From: Caldifarciminota bacterium SM23_42
GTDB lineage: Bacteria > Hydrothermota > Tepidihabitantia > SM23-42
Length of the DNA stretch: 64,000 bases
Assembly (NCBI GenBank): GCA_001303785.1
Contig: LJUJ01000005.1
Span: 1 to 64,000 of the forward strand
Direction of reading: 5' to 3'
Part shown: positions 51,911 to 60,340 of the stretch, piece by piece
How positions within the stretch are numbered: position 1 is the stretch's first letter
How the letters are laid out: the number at the start of each line of letters is the position of its first letter
The notes under the pieces: model-generated
The model's input: only the letters and a program-made list of their open reading frames with translations
Told to the model about the DNA's origin: nothing
The model's database searches: none
Made by a program: the position numbers and the translations under genes

Positions 51911-53164
51911 ATGATCTTCTTGGCTTTTTTGATCGTATACGATTCTCTCCCGCCATTGCCTGACCTCTCAAGACTGTACTTTCCAGAACCCGTATTGTGG
52001 GTCGAGCCAGCCGAGAGGTCCATAACCCTTGCCGGCTACGCCGGCCAATTCGGTGGCGTCCGTGTAAACACGAGAGTCCCGGGTCTAGACATAAGGGGAG
52101 CATTCGAAAGCAAGAATGAATGGGATTCTACGGAAACCGGTAACGCGTACGTGTCATACTCGATGCGACTGCCACGAATATGGTTTAGGCCCCGAATTGG
52201 TGGATACTTGCTAACCCGTGGCGACGAATACCAATTGCTGACCCCAGGCTTTGATTTGATTGTATTCTCATCCTTTGCGTTATTATCGAGCGAAGTGGAT
52301 TACAACCGGTGGAAGATAAACGGTGTAAGATCTTCTGAATCCGGCGGAACGATCTCCTTGATATTTGACCGTACTAAATACTTGCCTTCGTTGACATTTA
52401 GTGGCCGCTACACTAATCAAGAATTCAAACCTACGTTGGCTGGTAAGCTGCACACCAAAAATCTCCATTTGACACTGGGCTCAGCCGTTGCCGGGGTTCT
52501 GTCACCACTCTTGCGCGTGGTCTACTCACAACCTGTCATAACAATTGCCGCACAAATTCGCAGGGGCATTGAGTTTAATACACTGTACGAATACTTCCAA
52601 CCTGAAATACCACTGCAATACCGAATTCCGATACCCGACGAAACATTAAGGGTCAGCGTCGATCTGGATACGAAATTGAATTTCTATGATCACTCGATCA
52701 CAATACGTGTTTCATACAAAGACTGGCAATACCGGTTGGCTCCCGGCGGTGATTATCAAGTCTCTCACACAAAAGACACGCGCGAAGTCAACGCGCGACT
52801 TCGAATTCACGATATTTTTCAATCGAATCTTCTGGATATTCGTAACACATGTAATATTCATTATACTTGGACAGACAGCACAATCAGTTTCTTGCCCAAG
52901 TATGTAATATCTGACACGTTAGACATATTCTTTGGCCTGTTGGAAATTGGCGCCGATTTGCGCTACGTATCCAGCAGGCCGGGCCTCGAGGATTCCCTAC
53001 CTCACTATTACCTCATAAGCACTAACATCGGCCTGCGTATTAAATATTTCAAGCCGTACTTCTCAATATACAACATAAATAACACGAGGAGTAAAATCTT
53101 TGATGATTACTACTTGGCAGGAAGACAATACGGTGGTGGGTTGAATGTCAGTTGGCGATTCTAA
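51911..53164 (+). CDS. Predicted outer-membrane beta-barrel protein
   Basis: A 417-residue protein with a short hydrophobic N-terminus, many alternating amphipathic strands and a terminal aromatic (GGGLNVSWRF), typical of an outer-membrane barrel. The middle shows repeated aromatic-flanked strands (SITIRVSYKDWQYRLAPGG, IGLRIKYFKPYFSIYNI). It resembles TonB-receptor or putative-porin barrels without the plug domain. No Shine-Dalgarno is evident; TATCAT ends five bases before the ATG, but no -35 is seen. Transport role unknown. Confidence 0.65.
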   Translation: MIFLAFLIVYDSLPPLPDLSRLYFPEPVLWVEPAERSITLAGYAGQFGGVRVNTRVPGLDIRGAFESKNEWDSTETGNAYVSYSMRLPRIWFRPRIGGYLLTRGDEYQLLTPGFDLIVFSSFALLSSEVDYNRWKINGVRSSESGGTISLIFDRTKYLPSLTFSGRYTNQEFKPTLAGKLHTKNLHLTLGSAVAGVLSPLLRVVYSQPVITIAAQIRRGIEFNTLYEYFQPEIPLQYRIPIPDETLRVSVDLDTKLNFYDHSITIRVSYKDWQYRLAPGGDYQVSHTKDTREVNARLRIHDIFQSNLLDIRNTCNIHYTWTDSTISFLPKYVISDTLDIFFGLLEIGADLRYVSSRPGLEDSLPHYYLISTNIGLRIKYFKPYFSIYNINNTRSKIFDDYYLAGRQYGGGLNVSWRF

Positions 53165-53184: not shown

Positions 53185-53991
53185 TCACTCGGGATTGAGT
53201 ACCCGCATCATCTGGCGATGTATGTAACCGTTCGTACCCAACACCTCGTTGCCATAGACGTCGAAATCTCGACCGCTGAAGTCGGTTATTCGGCCCCCGG
53301 CTTCACGTAAGATCAGTGAACCAGCTGCTTGATCCCAGGGCGACAGTTTCAATTCCCAATAACCGTCGAATCGTCCACAAGCAGTATAGCATAGATCTAA
53401 TGCCGCTGACCCCAACCTTCTGACGGCTCGGGCGCGGACCGCAAAGGCATTGAAATGCCTCAAATTGTTTTTCTTACTCCGTCTGATGTCATAGGGGAAT
53501 CCTGTAACCAGCAAGCTATACTCAAGCCTCTTTGCCTTTGATACGTGAATTCTCCGACCGTTTAAATGAGCACCACGACCCTTCAGGCCCGAGAATGTCT
53601 CTCTTCGATTGGGGTCATACACGACACCAAGCAAGATATCTTTTTCGACCTCCAGTCCTATCGAAATCGCCCATATCGGCAAACCATGAGCGAAATTTGT
53701 TGTACCGTCTAGCGGATCCACTATCCATTTGATTGCTCTGTCGGTGTTTGTGTCGATGTCTTCTTCGCTCAAGATACCGTACTCGGGGAAATTCTTCCTC
53801 AGGGCATCGACTATCAATCGCTGTGCCTCTCGGTCGAACTGGGTAACAAGATCAATTTCACCCTTGAATGATATCCGTTTCTGCTGACTCGCCTTCTTAA
53901 GTATCCTGCCGCCAACATCTTGGACCAATTTTTTTGTGAAATCGAGTGCGTACTTGGCACTCCTGTACGATATTGTCACTTCGACACCCAT
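53185..53991 (-). CDS. suhB: Inositol-1-monophosphatase family protein
   Basis: A Mg-dependent phosphatase of the IMPase/SuhB group. Metal and catalytic motifs are GEIDLVTQFD, GILSEED (Glu-Glu-Asp), WIVDPLDGTTNFAHG and the late SPWDQAAGSLILREAGG. The frame extends 23 codons upstream into the DUF4388-TPR gene; the ATG at 53991, 13 bases past that gene's stop, gives the usual N-terminus and 268 residues. It probably dephosphorylates the inositol 1-phosphate made by Ino1 at 48.6 kb. It is the last gene of the Roadblock/DnaA-like operon. Related roles (fructose-1,6-bisphosphatase, PAP phosphatase) are less likely. Confidence 0.9.
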   Translation of the reverse strand: MGVEVTISYRSAKYALDFTKKLVQDVGGRILKKASQQKRISFKGEIDLVTQFDREAQRLIVDALRKNFPEYGILSEEDIDTNTDRAIKWIVDPLDGTTNFAHGLPIWAISIGLEVEKDILLGVVYDPNRRETFSGLKGRGAHLNGRRIHVSKAKRLEYSLLVTGFPYDIRRSKKNNLRHFNAFAVRARAVRRLGSAALDLCYTACGRFDGYWELKLSPWDQAAGSLILREAGGRITDFSGRDFDVYGNEVLGTNGYIHRQMMRVLNPE

Positions 53992-54004
53992 GCGAAAAGA
54001 GACT

Positions 54005-55591
54005 CTACTTCGACTTAACGGAACGGAGAGTTTGTAGATCGTGGACGACGTCGTCATCATCAGGGTCTAACTCGTGCGCCTGTTCCCAAGTATTCAACGC
54101 ACGTTCCCTGTCACCCTGCAATAAATATATGCGTCCAAGATTCTTGAGTGTTAATGGGTCGCGCTCAGCTGCCGGCATCTGCTCATAGCACTCGCGAGCA
54201 GCACCATAGATTCCCAGTCCAAGAAATATCTTAGCTAGGTTCTTGATTGCAACTGTCTCTCCTGGCTGTACATTCAGGACCTGACGGTAGAGCTTTTCAG
54301 CTTCTTCATATTTCCCGCTGCTTTGGTACAACACGGCGAGATTATTCTTGAGTGCCGCTAATCTCGGGAATTTATCGATTGCCCCCTTCAACCAATCAAT
54401 TGCCTTATCCGTATCATCTCTCATCACATTAATGAGGAATAAGTAGAGGTAAGGTAGTACAATGCCTTCCGAGCACTCTAAGCTCTCTTCGAGAATCGTT
54501 GCAGCTCCTTCCAAGTCACCCATTCTGTACCGGGTAATACCGAGATTGAGCATAACCTTCGCATTGTCAGGCGCTAACTCGTGTGCTCGCTGCAAATATG
54601 TGAGCGCATCTTCGTACAGTTTCATCTGACCACACACGTAACCGAGTGCAATTAGTACCGAAAGTCGACTTTCCTTTTCTAATGCTTTTTGTAAGTTATC
54701 TCTCGCGACTTCATTGTGATGCCGAATCAGCGCAATCAAACCGAGATAAAACAATGCCTCAGCATTGTCGGCGTCATGTTCTATTACCTTCGCGAATTCG
54801 CGCTCGGCTTCATCGTACAGCGCCGTCTTGTAGAATGCAAAACCTCTGTTCTTACGCTCACTCATATCACCCGACATTGGTTTTTTTTCTGCAGGTTTCT
54901 TTGGCTTCTCAATAACCCCAGCCGTCAACAAAACATTGACAACCTTACAAGCTTCGCGGAAGTCAAGCCCAGATATTTTAATCACACGATCGACACTATT
55001 ATCACCATCGATGAGTGACAAAACCATGCTTTCTTGTTCTGTAAGTTTCAGATCCGGTATATCTTCCCGCTTAACCAACACGGTCTCGAAGGGCGGCAAT
55101 TTACTTTCTATTTTCTGCCATTCTTGAATTCGCCGGGCTCCCTTTAGCAAGAGTTCCTGTGCGGAGAGCTCTATTGTATACTCCGCTGATGATGGTAATA
55201 GGCCTTCTTCGAAATTAAAGTACCCGGTTTCCCAAGTAAGCATGGTTAGTATCGTTTCTTCTATTTGTTGTCTTAACTCCTTTTCTAAAACTACGCGTGA
55301 TATCGCACCCATCTCCACCAGGATCTCACCGATCCTTTTCTTCTTCGTCTTCTGAATTCCTACCGCTCGGTCCATAATAGTCTGATCGAACAGTTTCTTT
55401 TCGAGCATCGTATCTCCAATACGCATTCTCCTATTTAGAATCGTGGCATAGATGACCCGACCATCCCTTAGAAAAATATTGCCAAAATTCCTACCGTCCG
55501 TAACAGAAAGACACCCAGATTTGAGTGAATAAGTCAGCAGCTGTATAACATCAGGAAGTGAAGCCTCACCGAGTGAACCCTTGATCGCCAA
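54005..55591 (-). CDS. DUF4388 (PATAN-like) and TPR-repeat protein
   Basis: A 528-residue scaffold. The N-terminal region (about 1-110) is a DUF4388/PATAN domain (GSLGEASLPDVIQLLTYSLK, SGCLSVTDG), a fold found with response regulators and Roadblock/GTPase systems. A middle region (about 175-240) looks like a winged-helix-type segment. Residues about 255-525 hold seven to eight TPR repeats (AEALFYLGLIALIRHHNEV, AKVMLNLGITRYRMGDLE). The start is TTG, six bases after TAGGAG. It sits between the DnaA-like ATPase and suhB, suggesting it scaffolds a complex with the ATPase and the Roadblock protein. Its specific job is unknown. Confidence 0.85.
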   Translation of the reverse strand: MAIKGSLGEASLPDVIQLLTYSLKSGCLSVTDGRNFGNIFLRDGRVIYATILNRRMRIGDTMLEKKLFDQTIMDRAVGIQKTKKKRIGEILVEMGAISRVVLEKELRQQIEETILTMLTWETGYFNFEEGLLPSSAEYTIELSAQELLLKGARRIQEWQKIESKLPPFETVLVKREDIPDLKLTEQESMVLSLIDGDNSVDRVIKISGLDFREACKVVNVLLTAGVIEKPKKPAEKKPMSGDMSERKNRGFAFYKTALYDEAEREFAKVIEHDADNAEALFYLGLIALIRHHNEVARDNLQKALEKESRLSVLIALGYVCGQMKLYEDALTYLQRAHELAPDNAKVMLNLGITRYRMGDLEGAATILEESLECSEGIVLPYLYLFLINVMRDDTDKAIDWLKGAIDKFPRLAALKNNLAVLYQSSGKYEEAEKLYRQVLNVQPGETVAIKNLAKIFLGLGIYGAARECYEQMPAAERDPLTLKNLGRIYLLQGDRERALNTWEQAHELDPDDDDVVHDLQTLRSVKSK

Positions 55592-55628
55592 AAAGAACTC
55601 CTAACGTTTATACGCCATTGTCGCTAAT

Positions 55629-56885
55629 TCAGAATGTTTCTTCAATCAACTCGCTCATTACATCAGGTATCATATAGTTGTTTTCATCACGCGCATTCAC
55701 TGGAGTACTCTCCAGCAATTTCTCTGCAATACGTTCACTAGTCGTCATTTTATCATCGCCCAACTCAAACATCTCAGATTGCGGCGGCGATTCTTCACCG
55801 GGAAGACCCAATGGTACGACAGCCGTCGTGTCCTTCCCCTCGCTTGTTCCGAGGAATTCATTATCTTCTTCAAAACCCCGGACCATTTTTTCTATGTCCT
55901 GTACCCTCGCCGGGTCAAAGAGCATAGACTCGATTTTCATTGCCTCAACCGGGTTCTTCCCCCGGTCAATATTAATGAATAAACTCTGCAGCCTGAGCAA
56001 TCTCCTCACCCGTTCGGTAAAATACTCATATGCCTGCTTCAATTCATCATCATCTCCCCCAGACCTTTCCCTTAGTGACGACACATCAAAACCCTTCATC
56101 TCGAACAAGTGCATCTTCAGCTCGTATTCATACCTTAAATCACGGCCTCCTATATCACTCAGCATCCAGAACTCTTTTTTATTTATCTCCTTCAATATCG
56201 ACGATACAAAAAGCCCCTTTTTCTTCGGGTACGACTCCTTGAGTATCAAACGTATGCTACCTGTGTCAATTGGTAGGTTACCCATTGATGAATATGTGAC
56301 CAAACGGCTTATCATATTCTCCAGCATTGTAACTGAACCAGTGGCAACGTGAGCCAACTCGGTAGCAACTTCATCAGAAAGAATAATGCCGGCTTCATCT
56401 GCTTTCATTCGGATCATCTCGATCCGGGCTTGCCCATCGGGAGGTTGTAACTCGCATATGAGTCCGCTCTCAATCAACGAGCACAATTTAGGACTGAAAT
56501 TCCTGATCGCCTGGGGTGGGGCATCAGCCGAGAAGCACACCTGAATATTATCAGTCAGAGCACGCTCAACGATGTCCTGTAATCCTTCCTTGTAATCATC
56601 ATGCATCAAGTGCAAATCATCGACGATGAGCGGTGAATCGAGCCCTCTGTTCTCCTCAATACTTTTTTCAAATGCATCCACCGATAAAAAGAGTGTCGTG
56701 AATCTCCTACTCAAATCATTGTTTATGGCACGCAGCAAGTGTGTCTTACCCAACCCCTCAGCCCCATAGACATAAAACGGGTTGAATATCTCACCAGGTA
56801 ATTCGACCACTTTTTTTGCCGCGAGACAGGCAACTTTGTTGCCTTCGTACATGTGGAAGTTCTCAAACGTGTAGTCGCGGGTCAT
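55629..56885 (-). CDS. DnaA/Hda-like AAA+ ATPase without the DnaA DNA-binding domain
   Basis: A 418-residue ATPase. The first 215 residues match the DnaA/Hda AAA+ core: YTFENFHMYEGNKVA, Walker A GAEGLGKTH (41-49), Walker B LIVDDLHLM (86-94), SADAPPQAI and the lid region GSVTMLENMISRL. After that it departs from DnaA. There is no domain IV helix-turn-helix; instead a charged region continues to an acidic C-terminal tail. It therefore should not bind DnaA boxes as DnaA does. Its ATG overlaps the Roadblock gene stop (TAATG). Role unknown; an Hda-like regulator or a positioning ATPase are options. Confidence 0.85.
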   Translation of the reverse strand: MTRDYTFENFHMYEGNKVACLAAKKVVELPGEIFNPFYVYGAEGLGKTHLLRAINNDLSRRFTTLFLSVDAFEKSIEENRGLDSPLIVDDLHLMHDDYKEGLQDIVERALTDNIQVCFSADAPPQAIRNFSPKLCSLIESGLICELQPPDGQARIEMIRMKADEAGIILSDEVATELAHVATGSVTMLENMISRLVTYSSMGNLPIDTGSIRLILKESYPKKKGLFVSSILKEINKKEFWMLSDIGGRDLRYEYELKMHLFEMKGFDVSSLRERSGGDDDELKQAYEYFTERVRRLLRLQSLFINIDRGKNPVEAMKIESMLFDPARVQDIEKMVRGFEEDNEFLGTSEGKDTTAVVPLGLPGEESPPQSEMFELGDDKMTTSERIAEKLLESTPVNARDENNYMIPDVMSELIEETF

Positions 56886-57289
56886 TATTCAGTTTCTAAT
56901 ACCCTCACCGCTTCGGCACAAAAATCTACAGATGCAACCTTTACTAACCCGGGTAATGTTCGATCATCAAACAACGTGACCAATAGATAATCCTCATCGA
57001 CACAGGTATAGTACATGCTTGCGTTGATGCCCTCCTGTAAGAAACTTGAAAATTTCTTATCACCTACGATATGCGCTAATTCCGCCGTTGAGTTGAAAAT
57101 GCTGCAGGCGATAGCATTGATCGTCAAGACATCAAAAGAATTGACAAAACCCCGCTGCACAACGAGCTGGCCAGCGAGGGTCGTGAACAAAGCCCATATC
57201 GTGTTGGCTTGATTGCAGAAATCTTCGAGTAGAAACCCGAGTTGTTCGTACTTGTTCTTTGAAATTACTATTACTTCCGGTACTTGCAT
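56885..57289 (-). CDS. Roadblock/LC7-like protein
   Basis: A 134-residue single-domain protein of the Roadblock/LC7 type: a long first helix (LGFLLEDFCNQANTIWALF), a central sheet (LAGQLVVQRGF), the second helix and a final pair of strands ending MYYTCVDEDYLLVTLFD. Such proteins (for example MglB) usually regulate or bind small Ras-like GTPases; no GTPase gene is in the window. It starts the four-gene operon and has its own promoter whose -10 ends eight bases before the ATG. It is translationally coupled to the DnaA-like ATPase. The fold call rests on pattern and length, so moderate certainty. Confidence 0.72.
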   Translation of the reverse strand: MQVPEVIVISKNKYEQLGFLLEDFCNQANTIWALFTTLAGQLVVQRGFVNSFDVLTINAIACSIFNSTAELAHIVGDKKFSSFLQEGINASMYYTCVDEDYLLVTLFDDRTLPGLVKVASVDFCAEAVRVLETE

Positions 57290-57297
57290 CTCTAAAA

Positions 57298-57326
57298 ATT
57301 ATACTGAAGAATTGCCTTTAAGTCAA
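57298..57326 (-). promoter_or_regulatory. Promoter of the Roadblock operon (near-leaderless)
   Basis: On the minus strand, TTGACT (57321-57326), 17-base spacer, TATAAT (57298-57303), then eight bases to the ATG. It separates this operon from parAB transcription. Confidence 0.72.
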
Positions 57327-57444: not shown

Positions 57445-58302
57445 TCAGGTCTTGGGCTGTCTGATTTTCTTCAATATATCGTATATGCGATTGAAATCAT
57501 CAACACTATGGCAATGGATCATTATGGACCCATAATTTCTTTTCCACTCTATGCTGACCTTGGTGCTCAGAAGCTTGGATAATTCATCTTCGAGCATGAC
57601 AATATTCGGCTCCTTTTCCTTCGCCGGTACGATACGCGGTTTCTGTCGAATTTTCCTTACCAAAGCCTCAGCCTGCCGAACCGACAGGTTGTCCCTCACA
57701 ATGCGCTCGGCAACTTGTAGTATCTTAATCTCATCATCGAGAGCAAGAAGGGCCCGTGCATGACCAGCATTCATTTTGTTGCTACGCAGATATTCCACAA
57801 CGCGCTTAGGAAGGGCCAGCAATCTCAATGCATTGGTCACTGTGGAACGGTCTTTCCCCACTAACAGTGCTATTCGGTCATGGGTCAACCCAAAATTCTT
57901 ATTCAACTGATCATAGGCCTGCGCTTCTTCGATTGGATTCAGGTCCTTACGCTGTAGATTCTCGATAAGACCGATCTCGAGAAGTTCTTGCTCACTCAAA
58001 TCCCTTATTATTGCCGGGATCTCTTTCAAACCTGCTATCCGCGCGGCTTTCAGGCGTCTCTCGCCAGCGGCAAGCACAAAATGATCATTGCTCCTTTTCA
58101 CAACGATGGGCTCGATGACACCCTTGTCCTTAATCGATGAAACCAGGTCCTTGACGTCTGCATCCTCAATCTTCGCCCTTGGCTGATACGGATTCCTCTT
58201 GATCACATCAACCGGAATCATTCGGTAGCCTTCTTGAAAAACCTCGTTTTCCTTTACGGGAATCAGAGCTTCGAGCCCTTTACCTAAAGCACGCCTACGC
58301 AT
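57445..58302 (-). CDS. parB: Chromosome-partitioning protein ParB
   Basis: ParB binds parS sites near oriC and slides as a CTP-dependent clamp. The 285 residues contain the N-terminal CTPase region (PYQPR, then AGERRLKAARIAGL), ENLQRKDLNPIEEAQAY, a helix-turn-helix (TVTNALRLLALPKRV) and a C-terminal dimerisation segment. The N-terminus RRRALGKGLEALIP is the typical ParA-interaction motif. The start overlaps the end of parA by eight bases. I found no convincing parS sequence in the window. Confidence 0.96.
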   Translation of the reverse strand: MRRRALGKGLEALIPVKENEVFQEGYRMIPVDVIKRNPYQPRAKIEDADVKDLVSSIKDKGVIEPIVVKRSNDHFVLAAGERRLKAARIAGLKEIPAIIRDLSEQELLEIGLIENLQRKDLNPIEEAQAYDQLNKNFGLTHDRIALLVGKDRSTVTNALRLLALPKRVVEYLRSNKMNAGHARALLALDDEIKILQVAERIVRDNLSVRQAEALVRKIRQKPRIVPAKEKEPNIVMLEDELSKLLSTKVSIEWKRNYGSIMIHCHSVDDFNRIYDILKKIRQPKT

Positions 58303-59053
58303 GATTCAACAGCTCCCTTGTCAAATTCAAATACGCCTGAGCACCTGAAGAAACGATACTATAGTGAATGACTGAGTTACCGTAAGAAGGAGACTCAGCA
58401 ATCCGTACCGAACGCGGAATCACAGTTTTGAAAACAACCTCAGGAAAGTGCGCCTGAATATCCTCGACTACATCCTTGGCCAGATTCAACCGTGCATCAT
58501 ACATGGTCAAAAGAATTCCCTCGATGACAAGATTACTGTTCAACCCGTTCTTTACTGCCTTGAGCGTCTTGAGCAACTTCTCTAAACCCTCCAATGCGTA
58601 ATACTCGCATTGTATTGGAATGATGACGCTGTCGCAAGCTACCAAAGCATTGACGGTCAAGAGTCCAAGCGAAGGAGGGCAATCGATAATACCGAAATCA
58701 TAGTCAAAATCGATTAGCGAAAGTACCTTTTTGAGCTTCCCTTCACGGTCATCTTTATCAACGAGCTCGATTTCCGCGCCTGCCAAGTCAGTGGTCGACG
58801 GCACAATCGAAATCCTTGGCCATTTTGTCTTCAGTATCGTTTCTCTCACCAGATCCGGTTCGTAGAGGCAATCATATATTGATTTCTCGAGGGTTTTGTA
58901 ATCAACTCCCAGCCCGCTCGTTGAATTTGCCTGCGGGTCGATATCGATGAGCAGGACGTTCTTTTCTGCCAAGGAAAGACCAGCCGTAAGATTGATAGCG
59001 GTTGCGGTCTTGCCTACACCGCCTTTTTGATTACAAACCGCAATCTTTTTCAT
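58295..59053 (-). CDS. parA: Chromosome-partitioning ATPase ParA (Soj)
   Basis: A deviant Walker ATPase that segregates chromosomes with ParB. The 252 residues start KKIAVCNQKGGVGKTATA (Walker A with the signature lysine) and include IDIDPQANSTSGLG, IIDCPPSLGLLTVNAL and the C-terminal RSVRIAESPSYG. This is the small chromosomal type without an N-terminal HTH. A TTGACT-16-TAAAAT promoter ends seven bases before the ATG and no Shine-Dalgarno is present, so translation should be leaderless. parB follows directly. Confidence 0.97.
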   Translation of the reverse strand: MKKIAVCNQKGGVGKTATAINLTAGLSLAEKNVLLIDIDPQANSTSGLGVDYKTLEKSIYDCLYEPDLVRETILKTKWPRISIVPSTTDLAGAEIELVDKDDREGKLKKVLSLIDFDYDFGIIDCPPSLGLLTVNALVACDSVIIPIQCEYYALEGLEKLLKTLKAVKNGLNSNLVIEGILLTMYDARLNLAKDVVEDIQAHFPEVVFKTVIPRSVRIAESPSYGNSVIHYSIVSSGAQAYLNLTRELLNHA

Positions 59054-59357: not shown

Positions 59358-59385
59358 TTGACATCGTGCTCATTATGTGTAATAT
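59358..59385 (+). promoter_or_regulatory. Candidate promoter of the GMP synthase subunit gene
   Basis: TTGACA (59358-59363), 16-base spacer, TAATAT (59380-59385). A leader of about 12 bases carries AGGAGG (59395-59400) before the ATG. Confidence 0.58.
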
Positions 59386-59404
59386 GGAAAGAAGAGGAGG
59401 TTTG

Positions 59405-60340
59405 ATGGCATTCAATGCAAAAAAATTCGTCGAAGACACGATCGAAGAAATTCGAAATACCGCTGGCAACAAAACCGCTCTCTGTGCGACGAGTGGAGGC
59501 GTTGATTCGATGGTCTGCGCCTTCTTGGCCTACCGTGCAATAGGCAAGAACCTCACTGCCGTATTCATTGATGACGGATTGATGCGTGAGAACGAACCGA
59601 AGAGAGTGACGAGTGTGCTGCGCAGTAGAGGTGTGAGGACGGTACTAATTAGTGCAGCGAACGACTTTTTTAGAGCATTAAAAGGCAAGGAAGACCCTGA
59701 AGATATGCGTAAAGCCTTTCGCCACGCTTTTTACAAAACTCTGGGCAAAGCCGTAAGAAAACATCGTGCTAAGTATCTTATTCAAGGCACGATTGCTGCA
59801 GATGTTGCCGAAACCAAAGGCAAAATCAAGTCGCAGCACAATGTTTTGGAACAGATCGGCATTAGCCCGAGTCGATACGGTCTGAATGTCATCGAACCAT
59901 TGGTCAAGCTGTACAAACCGGATGTACGCAAAGTAGGTAAGGCACTCGGGCTACCAAAATCGATCTATCAGAGAATGCCCTTTCCTGGACCCGGGCTGGC
60001 AACCAGGGTTGTTGGTGAGGTTACACCGGATAGGGTGAGGATGCTACGTAAGGCGACGACAATCGTCGAGCGCGAGTTGAAAAACGTCAAGGCATTCCAG
60101 ACGTTTGCCGTCTTGCTCAGTGACCGAGCCACTGGTATCAGAAAGGGCAAGCGGGCATTCGGTAATATCATCGTAATCCGAAGTGTACAGTCAAAAAACG
60201 CGTTGACTGCCTCCCCGACTCACATACCGTACCAGATACTAGAAAGAATCCAGAAAAAAATCACACGGCGAATCCCCGAAGTCACGAAGGTCTTGTATGA
60301 CATCTCTCCTAAACCACCAAGTACCATCGAGTACATCTAA
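59405..60340 (+). CDS. guaA: GMP synthase, ATP-pyrophosphatase subunit (stand-alone)
   Basis: Aminates XMP to GMP using ATP and ammonia. The 311 residues contain only the ATP-PPase and dimerisation domains: CATSGGVDSMVC (PP-loop), IDDGLMRENE, LIQGTIAADVAE, MPFPGPGLATRVVGEVTP, and the C-terminal KPPSTIEYI. The N-terminal glutaminase of bacterial GuaA is absent, the arrangement usual in archaea (GuaAb). A separate glutaminase subunit should be encoded elsewhere. Codons further upstream are in frame, but AGGAGG four bases before this ATG and the family N-terminus fix the start. Confidence 0.94.
   Translation: MAFNAKKFVEDTIEEIRNTAGNKTALCATSGGVDSMVCAFLAYRAIGKNLTAVFIDDGLMRENEPKRVTSVLRSRGVRTVLISAANDFFRALKGKEDPEDMRKAFRHAFYKTLGKAVRKHRAKYLIQGTIAADVAETKGKIKSQHNVLEQIGISPSRYGLNVIEPLVKLYKPDVRKVGKALGLPKSIYQRMPFPGPGLATRVVGEVTPDRVRMLRKATTIVERELKNVKAFQTFAVLLSDRATGIRKGKRAFGNIIVIRSVQSKNALTASPTHIPYQILERIQKKITRRIPEVTKVLYDISPKPPSTIEYI

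Follow-up and report, generated by a model that had tools for sequence, protein, structure and literature searches.

What does a DnaA-like ATPase do in an operon with a Roadblock protein, when the partition genes parA and parB stand beside it? The question is raised by a locus within a 64,000-nt stretch of DNA (hereafter the window; positions 1 to 64,000, forward strand, of contig LJUJ01000005.1, assembly GCA_001303785.1), for which a first-pass annotation had proposed a system linking cell polarity or signalling to chromosome replication or segregation. The four genes it had described are all present on the minus strand, namely an MglB-type Roadblock protein (RB, 134 aa; 56885..57289), a DnaA-core AAA+ ATPase in a reduced, one-AAA+ form that we call DnaL (418 aa; 55629..56885), a DUF4388 (PATAN)-TPR protein (528 aa; 54005..55591), and the inositol monophosphatase SuhB (53185..53991; PF00459, E=7e-67), with the RB and DnaL reading frames sharing one base. 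SuhB had been listed as 53185-54060, while the conserved start is the ATG at 53991 (268 aa), which is the likely one, as the listed frame would run into the DUF4388-TPR gene. In the f1 and f2 relatives suhB keeps its place, but it is missing from distant loci and, standing last in the operon, is probably a bystander. At 51911-53164 the window also encodes an outer-membrane-barrel-like protein of unassigned family, whose gene is conserved in its position behind folD-mtnA and converges with suhB in most relatives.

A sigma-70-type promoter (57298..57326, minus strand; TTGACT, 17-nt spacer, TATAAT) lies 8 nt 5' of the RB ATG and predicts a near-leaderless mRNA. This element had been read from the sequence in the first-pass annotation, and we take it to be real because it is conserved wherever the genus has the locus, in seven genomes (the window and six others). 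The parB and parA genes (57445..59053, minus strand) stand in front of RB at the same seven loci, and the description of the operon as lying directly downstream of parB holds for the window genus but fails in other genera: no parAB was found at that place in Gemmatimonadota, nor in the other genera, in which bPH-DHH-MglA, fmt-rsmB, or other genes occur instead. With this synteny absent elsewhere, a functional parAB linkage was rejected outside the genus, and parA and parB are not part of the module. At 59366-60340, the window encodes a 324-aa GMP synthase that is apparently the ATP-pyrophosphatase part only, with no in-frame glutaminase domain.

The RB of the window matched no Pfam family (Robl_LC7 included), and its match to the NCBIfam MglB model NF052242 (E=4.7e-8) falls far short of that model's equivalog cut-off (200 bits). 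A family profile (A2, from 17 RB orthologues) matched the solved MglB chains of PDB 6h5b with E=1e-16, and Robl_LC7 matches the Gemmatimonadota Roadblock member at its cut-off; on sequence grounds, RB is MglB-like. Within the genus it is 81-92% identical and under stronger constraint than ParB. Between the window and the relative G006, dN and dS were 0.05 and 1.5 for RB and 0.33 and 2.1 for DnaL, values in which dS is near or past saturation and only the direction of dN versus dS is meaningful, and that direction is a clear signature of purifying selection on both proteins.

DnaL matched PF00308 (Bac_DnaA) with E=1.2e-23 and nothing else of weight, domains I and IV are absent, and no HTH family in Pfam or NCBIfam was matched. 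In its AlphaFold model, an AAA+ core is confidently predicted, together with a helical domain and a tail that is disordered (pLDDT <50), and Foldseek returned DnaA domain III as the best PDB match (TM 0.80 by target length), followed by Hda, while the score against the Hda model TIGR03420 (73 bits) did not reach the cut-off of 195. An ordinary IstB/DnaC-type ATPase, which the first-pass annotation had held out as the opposing identity, is ruled out, with the DnaA and Hda models far outscoring DnaC/DnaI.

In the usual DnaL layout, two AAA+ domains (AAA1 and AAA2) are separated by a middle domain that is ~110 residues long and contains a KGF motif, and a disordered tail ends the protein. The middle domain of the window's protein (55878..56207, minus strand; alignments A3 and A4, and the model) is helical in the predicted model and has no credible known-family match in Pfam. 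AAA2 is absent from the DnaL of the window and of G006, whereas typical relatives have two AAA+ domains. Across the window genus, the arginine finger (SRLEGGL, changed to CSLIESGL in the window) and the sensor-2 arginine (SIRTIEG, changed to SVTMLEN) are gone, while both are present in most f1 and f2 relatives and in Gemmatimonadota, where DnaL has two full DnaA domains that also include the initiator-specific helix; this helix is missing from the window's DnaL and from most WOR-3 copies. The DnaL architecture is that of a DnaA AAA+ core that was duplicated, with a new middle domain between the copies; the window's DnaL has been reduced to one AAA+ domain. A tree of the AAA+ domains, built to date the duplication, gave no resolution of the deep branches, so that the case for a single DnaL origin across the two phyla is made by synteny and the middle domain. 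In the closed assembly of G004, a second, N-interrupted DnaL copy (L047 8231-10258) is probably an assembly chimera.

The predicted disordered tail (55632..55862, minus strand) contains a VVPLGLPGEE motif and the C-terminal ELIEETF. Tails in the window's order carry one to three VPLGLPGEE motifs, and most DnaL members end in a hydrophobic-acidic-aromatic motif (e.g., ELIEENY, RLIEEY, and RVIEEF). The terminal EETF of the window's protein is close to NWETF, the C-terminal CheR/CheB-docking sequence of chemoreceptors, and a CheR/CheB-docking role for the tail was considered; it is disfavoured because the genus that lost CheB retains the tail, and a TPR partner fits better.

That partner could be the product of the next gene. 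The DUF4388-TPR protein matched PF14332 with E=3e-32 (111.5 bits versus a gathering score of 25) and also has TPRs. PATAN is the published name of DUF4388, for which an alpha-helical insertion has been described (Makarova 2006, as cited in PMC7690835). In the window's protein, the insertion (55265..55423, minus strand) contains an MshEN-type tandem motif (24-5-24) that is visible in the sequence, scores just under the cut-off of the MshEN-type model NF053729 (E=1.2e-8; 34.7 bits versus 38), and lacks the usual glycine at position 10 of its first half. The family profile matched PilF (4e-22), MshE 5htl (1e-10), and also PilB. The DUF4388-TPR protein carries a motif of the c-di-GMP-binding type like that of pilus motor ATPases, with the same tandem 24-residue motif and 5-residue spacer as in MshE, PilB, and PilF; in those ATPases MshEN stands at the start of the protein, whereas here the motif is inserted in a DUF4388-TPR protein.

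The association of RB, DnaL, and DUF4388-TPR, on which the first-pass annotation had built, is borne out in relatives. DnaL is present in 26 of the 27 genomes of the window's family and order, and the locus is retained in 7 of the 8 genomes of the window genus, the exception in each case being a genome that is 67% complete. Throughout the family and order, the DUF4388-TPR gene comes directly after DnaL in every locus with enough sequence and RB almost always before it, and RB-DnaL is translationally coupled in the order. Most other genera have CheR, CheD, CheB, and a TPR protein between DUF4388-TPR and SuhB. A first scan of genome contigs with the DnaL sequence as query gave no match. Candidate division WOR-3 (Stahlbacteria), to which the source organism belongs judging by its named relatives, was surveyed with a DnaL profile from which the first AAA+ domain had been left out. 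Genuine DnaL, recognised by its middle domain, was identified in at least ~54 of 147 WOR-3 genomes among the matches listed, the rest being DnaA itself. At 20 WOR-3 loci of other families, DUF4388-TPR follows DnaL in all 20, CheR (usually together with CheD and CheB) is downstream in 18, and MglA or RB precedes DnaL in 17 of the 19 with a visible upstream gene. Many WOR-3 loci further have pilT close upstream of mglA-DnaL, along with accC and thiE, and locus L132 reads CheY-CheA-CheC-TPR-TPR-Roadblock-Roadblock-RB-DnaL-DUF4388-CheR-CheD-CheB. At a single WOR-3 locus (L118 12945-13778), an ExeA/GspA-like AAA+ gene comes after the module's TPR gene.

The same arrangement recurs in Gemmatimonadota. 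A weaker profile of the middle domain (A3) matched 4 of 200 Gemmatimonadota genomes, and the profile with those four members added found the DnaL middle domain in 163 of 298. The typical order is CheA-CheC-TPR-Roadblock-MglA-DnaL-DUF4388-CheR-CheD-CheB; locus L143 has CheA-[CheC position]-TPR-TPR/Roadblock-Roadblock-MglA-DnaL-DUF4388-CheD-CheB-TPR, and L142 matches it, with CheC and CheR called. Among the best 30 Gemmatimonadota DnaL loci, DUF4388 is directly downstream in all 30 and MglA directly upstream in 22; at the other eight, one of which starts at a contig end, no MglA was found within ~0.8 kb upstream. The DnaL-DUF4388 adjacency holds wherever both genes are visible, in two phyla, and the RB/DnaL/DUF4388 gene set is far beyond chance.

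A Ras-like (MglA) partner, for which the first-pass annotation had suggested a search, is encoded next to RB-DnaL in Gemmatimonadota as well as in most related genera, and in the source genome the operon-type orthologue (MglA1) lies outside the window operon, on contig C5, where it again follows the DHH gene. A canonical MglB-MglA2 pair on contig C36 (L066 9165-10296), inside a polysaccharide/O-antigen biosynthesis cluster, suggests that the cell has a further Mgl system. Type IV pilus motors are encoded on contig C18 (PilT over the cut-off and two PilB-like ATPases). CheA was not found in the source genome and CheB in none of the 8 genomes of the window genus, whereas other WOR-3 families and Gemmatimonadota have CheA, CheR, and CheB.

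From its genes and their surroundings, we consider it probable that the locus represents a chemosensory-Mgl polarity module, most likely controlling where and when type IV pili work, and with them surface movement; the window has a reduced copy of it. The Che, Mgl, and pilT neighbours, the MglB match, and the MglA partner favour that part of the first-pass proposal which saw a Roadblock/DUF4388 polarity-signalling system. Control of type IV pili is suggested by the PilT linkage, the MshEN-type motif, and the published roles of MglA, SgmX, and PATAN proteins: MglA-GTP works on PilB via the TPR protein SgmX (PMC7519303), the PilB1 motor is an interaction partner of the PATAN regulator PixE (PMC7690835), and some MglA or MglB genes have already been noted beside PATAN genes (PMC4316618). 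In the proposed pathway, MglA-GTP would mark the cell pole and RB would limit or modulate MglA, while DnaL, in an ATP-dependent way, would serve as a scaffold or switch linking Mgl to an adaptor, the DUF4388-TPR protein; the TPRs of this adaptor could bind the conserved C-terminal tail of DnaL. Like PATAN proteins and SgmX in other systems, the adaptor would make contact with the pilus motors, and it would sense c-di-GMP; in the full form CheA, CheR, CheB, and CheD would supply sensory input, an input that appears to be gone in the window genus. Because residues for efficient ATP hydrolysis are lost, the window's DnaL is probably an ATP-bound scaffold; that it holds the DUF4388-TPR protein by its tail is speculative. 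A duplicated DnaA-type AAA+ protein may have been recruited, in at least two phyla, into the core of a chemosensory-Mgl pathway, where it would be an ATP-driven polarity switch that connects MglA to a PATAN-TPR adaptor of type IV pili able to read c-di-GMP.

The roles could also be divided differently, with the RB-DnaL pair as the working unit, Roadblock regulating the DnaL ATPase directly, and MglA a separate, exchangeable partner. Such an arrangement would suit the translational coupling in the window's order, the loci in which RB precedes DnaL with no MglA between them (L130, L132, L133, and L135), and the identity of RB in the genus, still 85-92% after MglA moved away, and a role of Roadblock proteins in regulating NTPases has been proposed (Koonin and Aravind 2000, as cited in PMC4316618). 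We nevertheless regard it as unlikely, given that MglA, not RB, lies directly before DnaL in other WOR-3 families and at most Gemmatimonadota loci.

The reading of DnaL as an Hda-like DnaA regulator, and with it the first-pass view that the operon couples polarity signalling to replication or ParAB segregation, is improbable. It agrees with the DnaA/Hda-type AAA+ core and with parAB directly upstream at all seven genus loci, but that adjacency is missing in other genera and Gemmatimonadota, the operon has its own conserved promoter, the conserved neighbours are Che, Mgl, and pilT, and DnaL has no domains I and IV and, in the window, no initiator-specific helix. Hda has an N-terminal clamp-binding motif, and the DnaL proteins of the window's order begin only ~6 residues before the AAA+ N-box, so they have no room for one. 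We likewise give little credence to the operon of the window genus being a decaying relic of a motility module with no function of its own: the Che genes, the second AAA+ domain (in the window and G006), the arginine finger, and sensor 2 have indeed been lost, yet every reading frame is intact, dN is well below dS, the promoter is conserved, and the locus is kept in 7 of 8 genomes. Least probable of all is that DnaL tethers a cytoplasmic chemosensory/polarity cluster to the nucleoid, to be placed and inherited with the chromosome, for although DnaL is of DnaA ancestry, retains the initiator-specific helix in Gemmatimonadota, and has a parallel in the nucleoid-associated Frz chemosensory arrays reported from Myxococcus (PMC6952110), it has no DNA-binding domain and the helix is missing in most WOR-3 copies.

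The chemosensory-Mgl module that we favour resembles several known systems in part. It shares MglA, a Roadblock protein (MglB), and chemosensory input with the Frz/MglA-MglB/SgmX system of Myxococcus xanthus (PMC7519303, PMC3441718), and a TPR protein as well, SgmX being a cytoplasmic TPR adaptor to PilB. In Myxococcus, however, the genes are not in a single operon, the SgmX papers searched contain no DnaA-like ATPase, and SgmX, unlike the module's TPR protein, has no reported DUF4388/MshEN domain. The cyanobacterial PATAN-CheY regulators of PilB1 (PixE, PixG, and LsiR; PMC7690835) similarly tie a chemosensory-type system to pili through PATAN, but there PATAN is fused to a receiver domain, whereas the module's PATAN is fused to TPRs, with MglA, Roadblock, and DnaL alongside. 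DnaL has the AAA+ domain III fold and sequence motifs in common with DnaA and Hda, and differs from them in lacking domains I and IV, in its new middle domain and usual pair of AAA+ domains, and in its Che/Mgl gene surroundings. The Streptomyces conservon (CvnA-D) likewise has adjoining genes for a Roadblock protein and an MglA-type GTPase, with signalling genes, but includes a histidine kinase (CvnA) and lacks both DnaA-like and DUF4388 proteins.

No description of a DnaA-like ATPase in an Mgl/Che/DUF4388 system was found in the open-access literature searched, which included few subscription journals and preprints. We know of no earlier case of a DnaA-type AAA+ protein acting in cell polarity rather than in replication, and the role proposed here would, if true, be the first; the module makes a role outside replication likely for such proteins. 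Most of what is known of Mgl-type polarity systems comes from Myxococcus, Bdellovibrio, and Thermus. In Gemmatimonadota and WOR-3, where to our knowledge surface motility has hardly been studied, a chemosensory-Mgl pathway that is encoded in an operon and includes a DnaA-derived ATPase now seems to be common. With the genes in one compact operon, the links of chemosensory input, small GTPase, c-di-GMP, and pilus motors become testable. The module itself is widespread and, in the literature searched, undescribed, and its reduced copy in the window happens to adjoin parAB in this one genus, a warning that a DnaA-like gene beside parAB need not mean replication control. A bPH-DHH phosphoesterase-MglA triple (L065 8311-10422, and many WOR-3 loci) is conserved upstream of the module in several genera and has been relocated as a block in the window genus.
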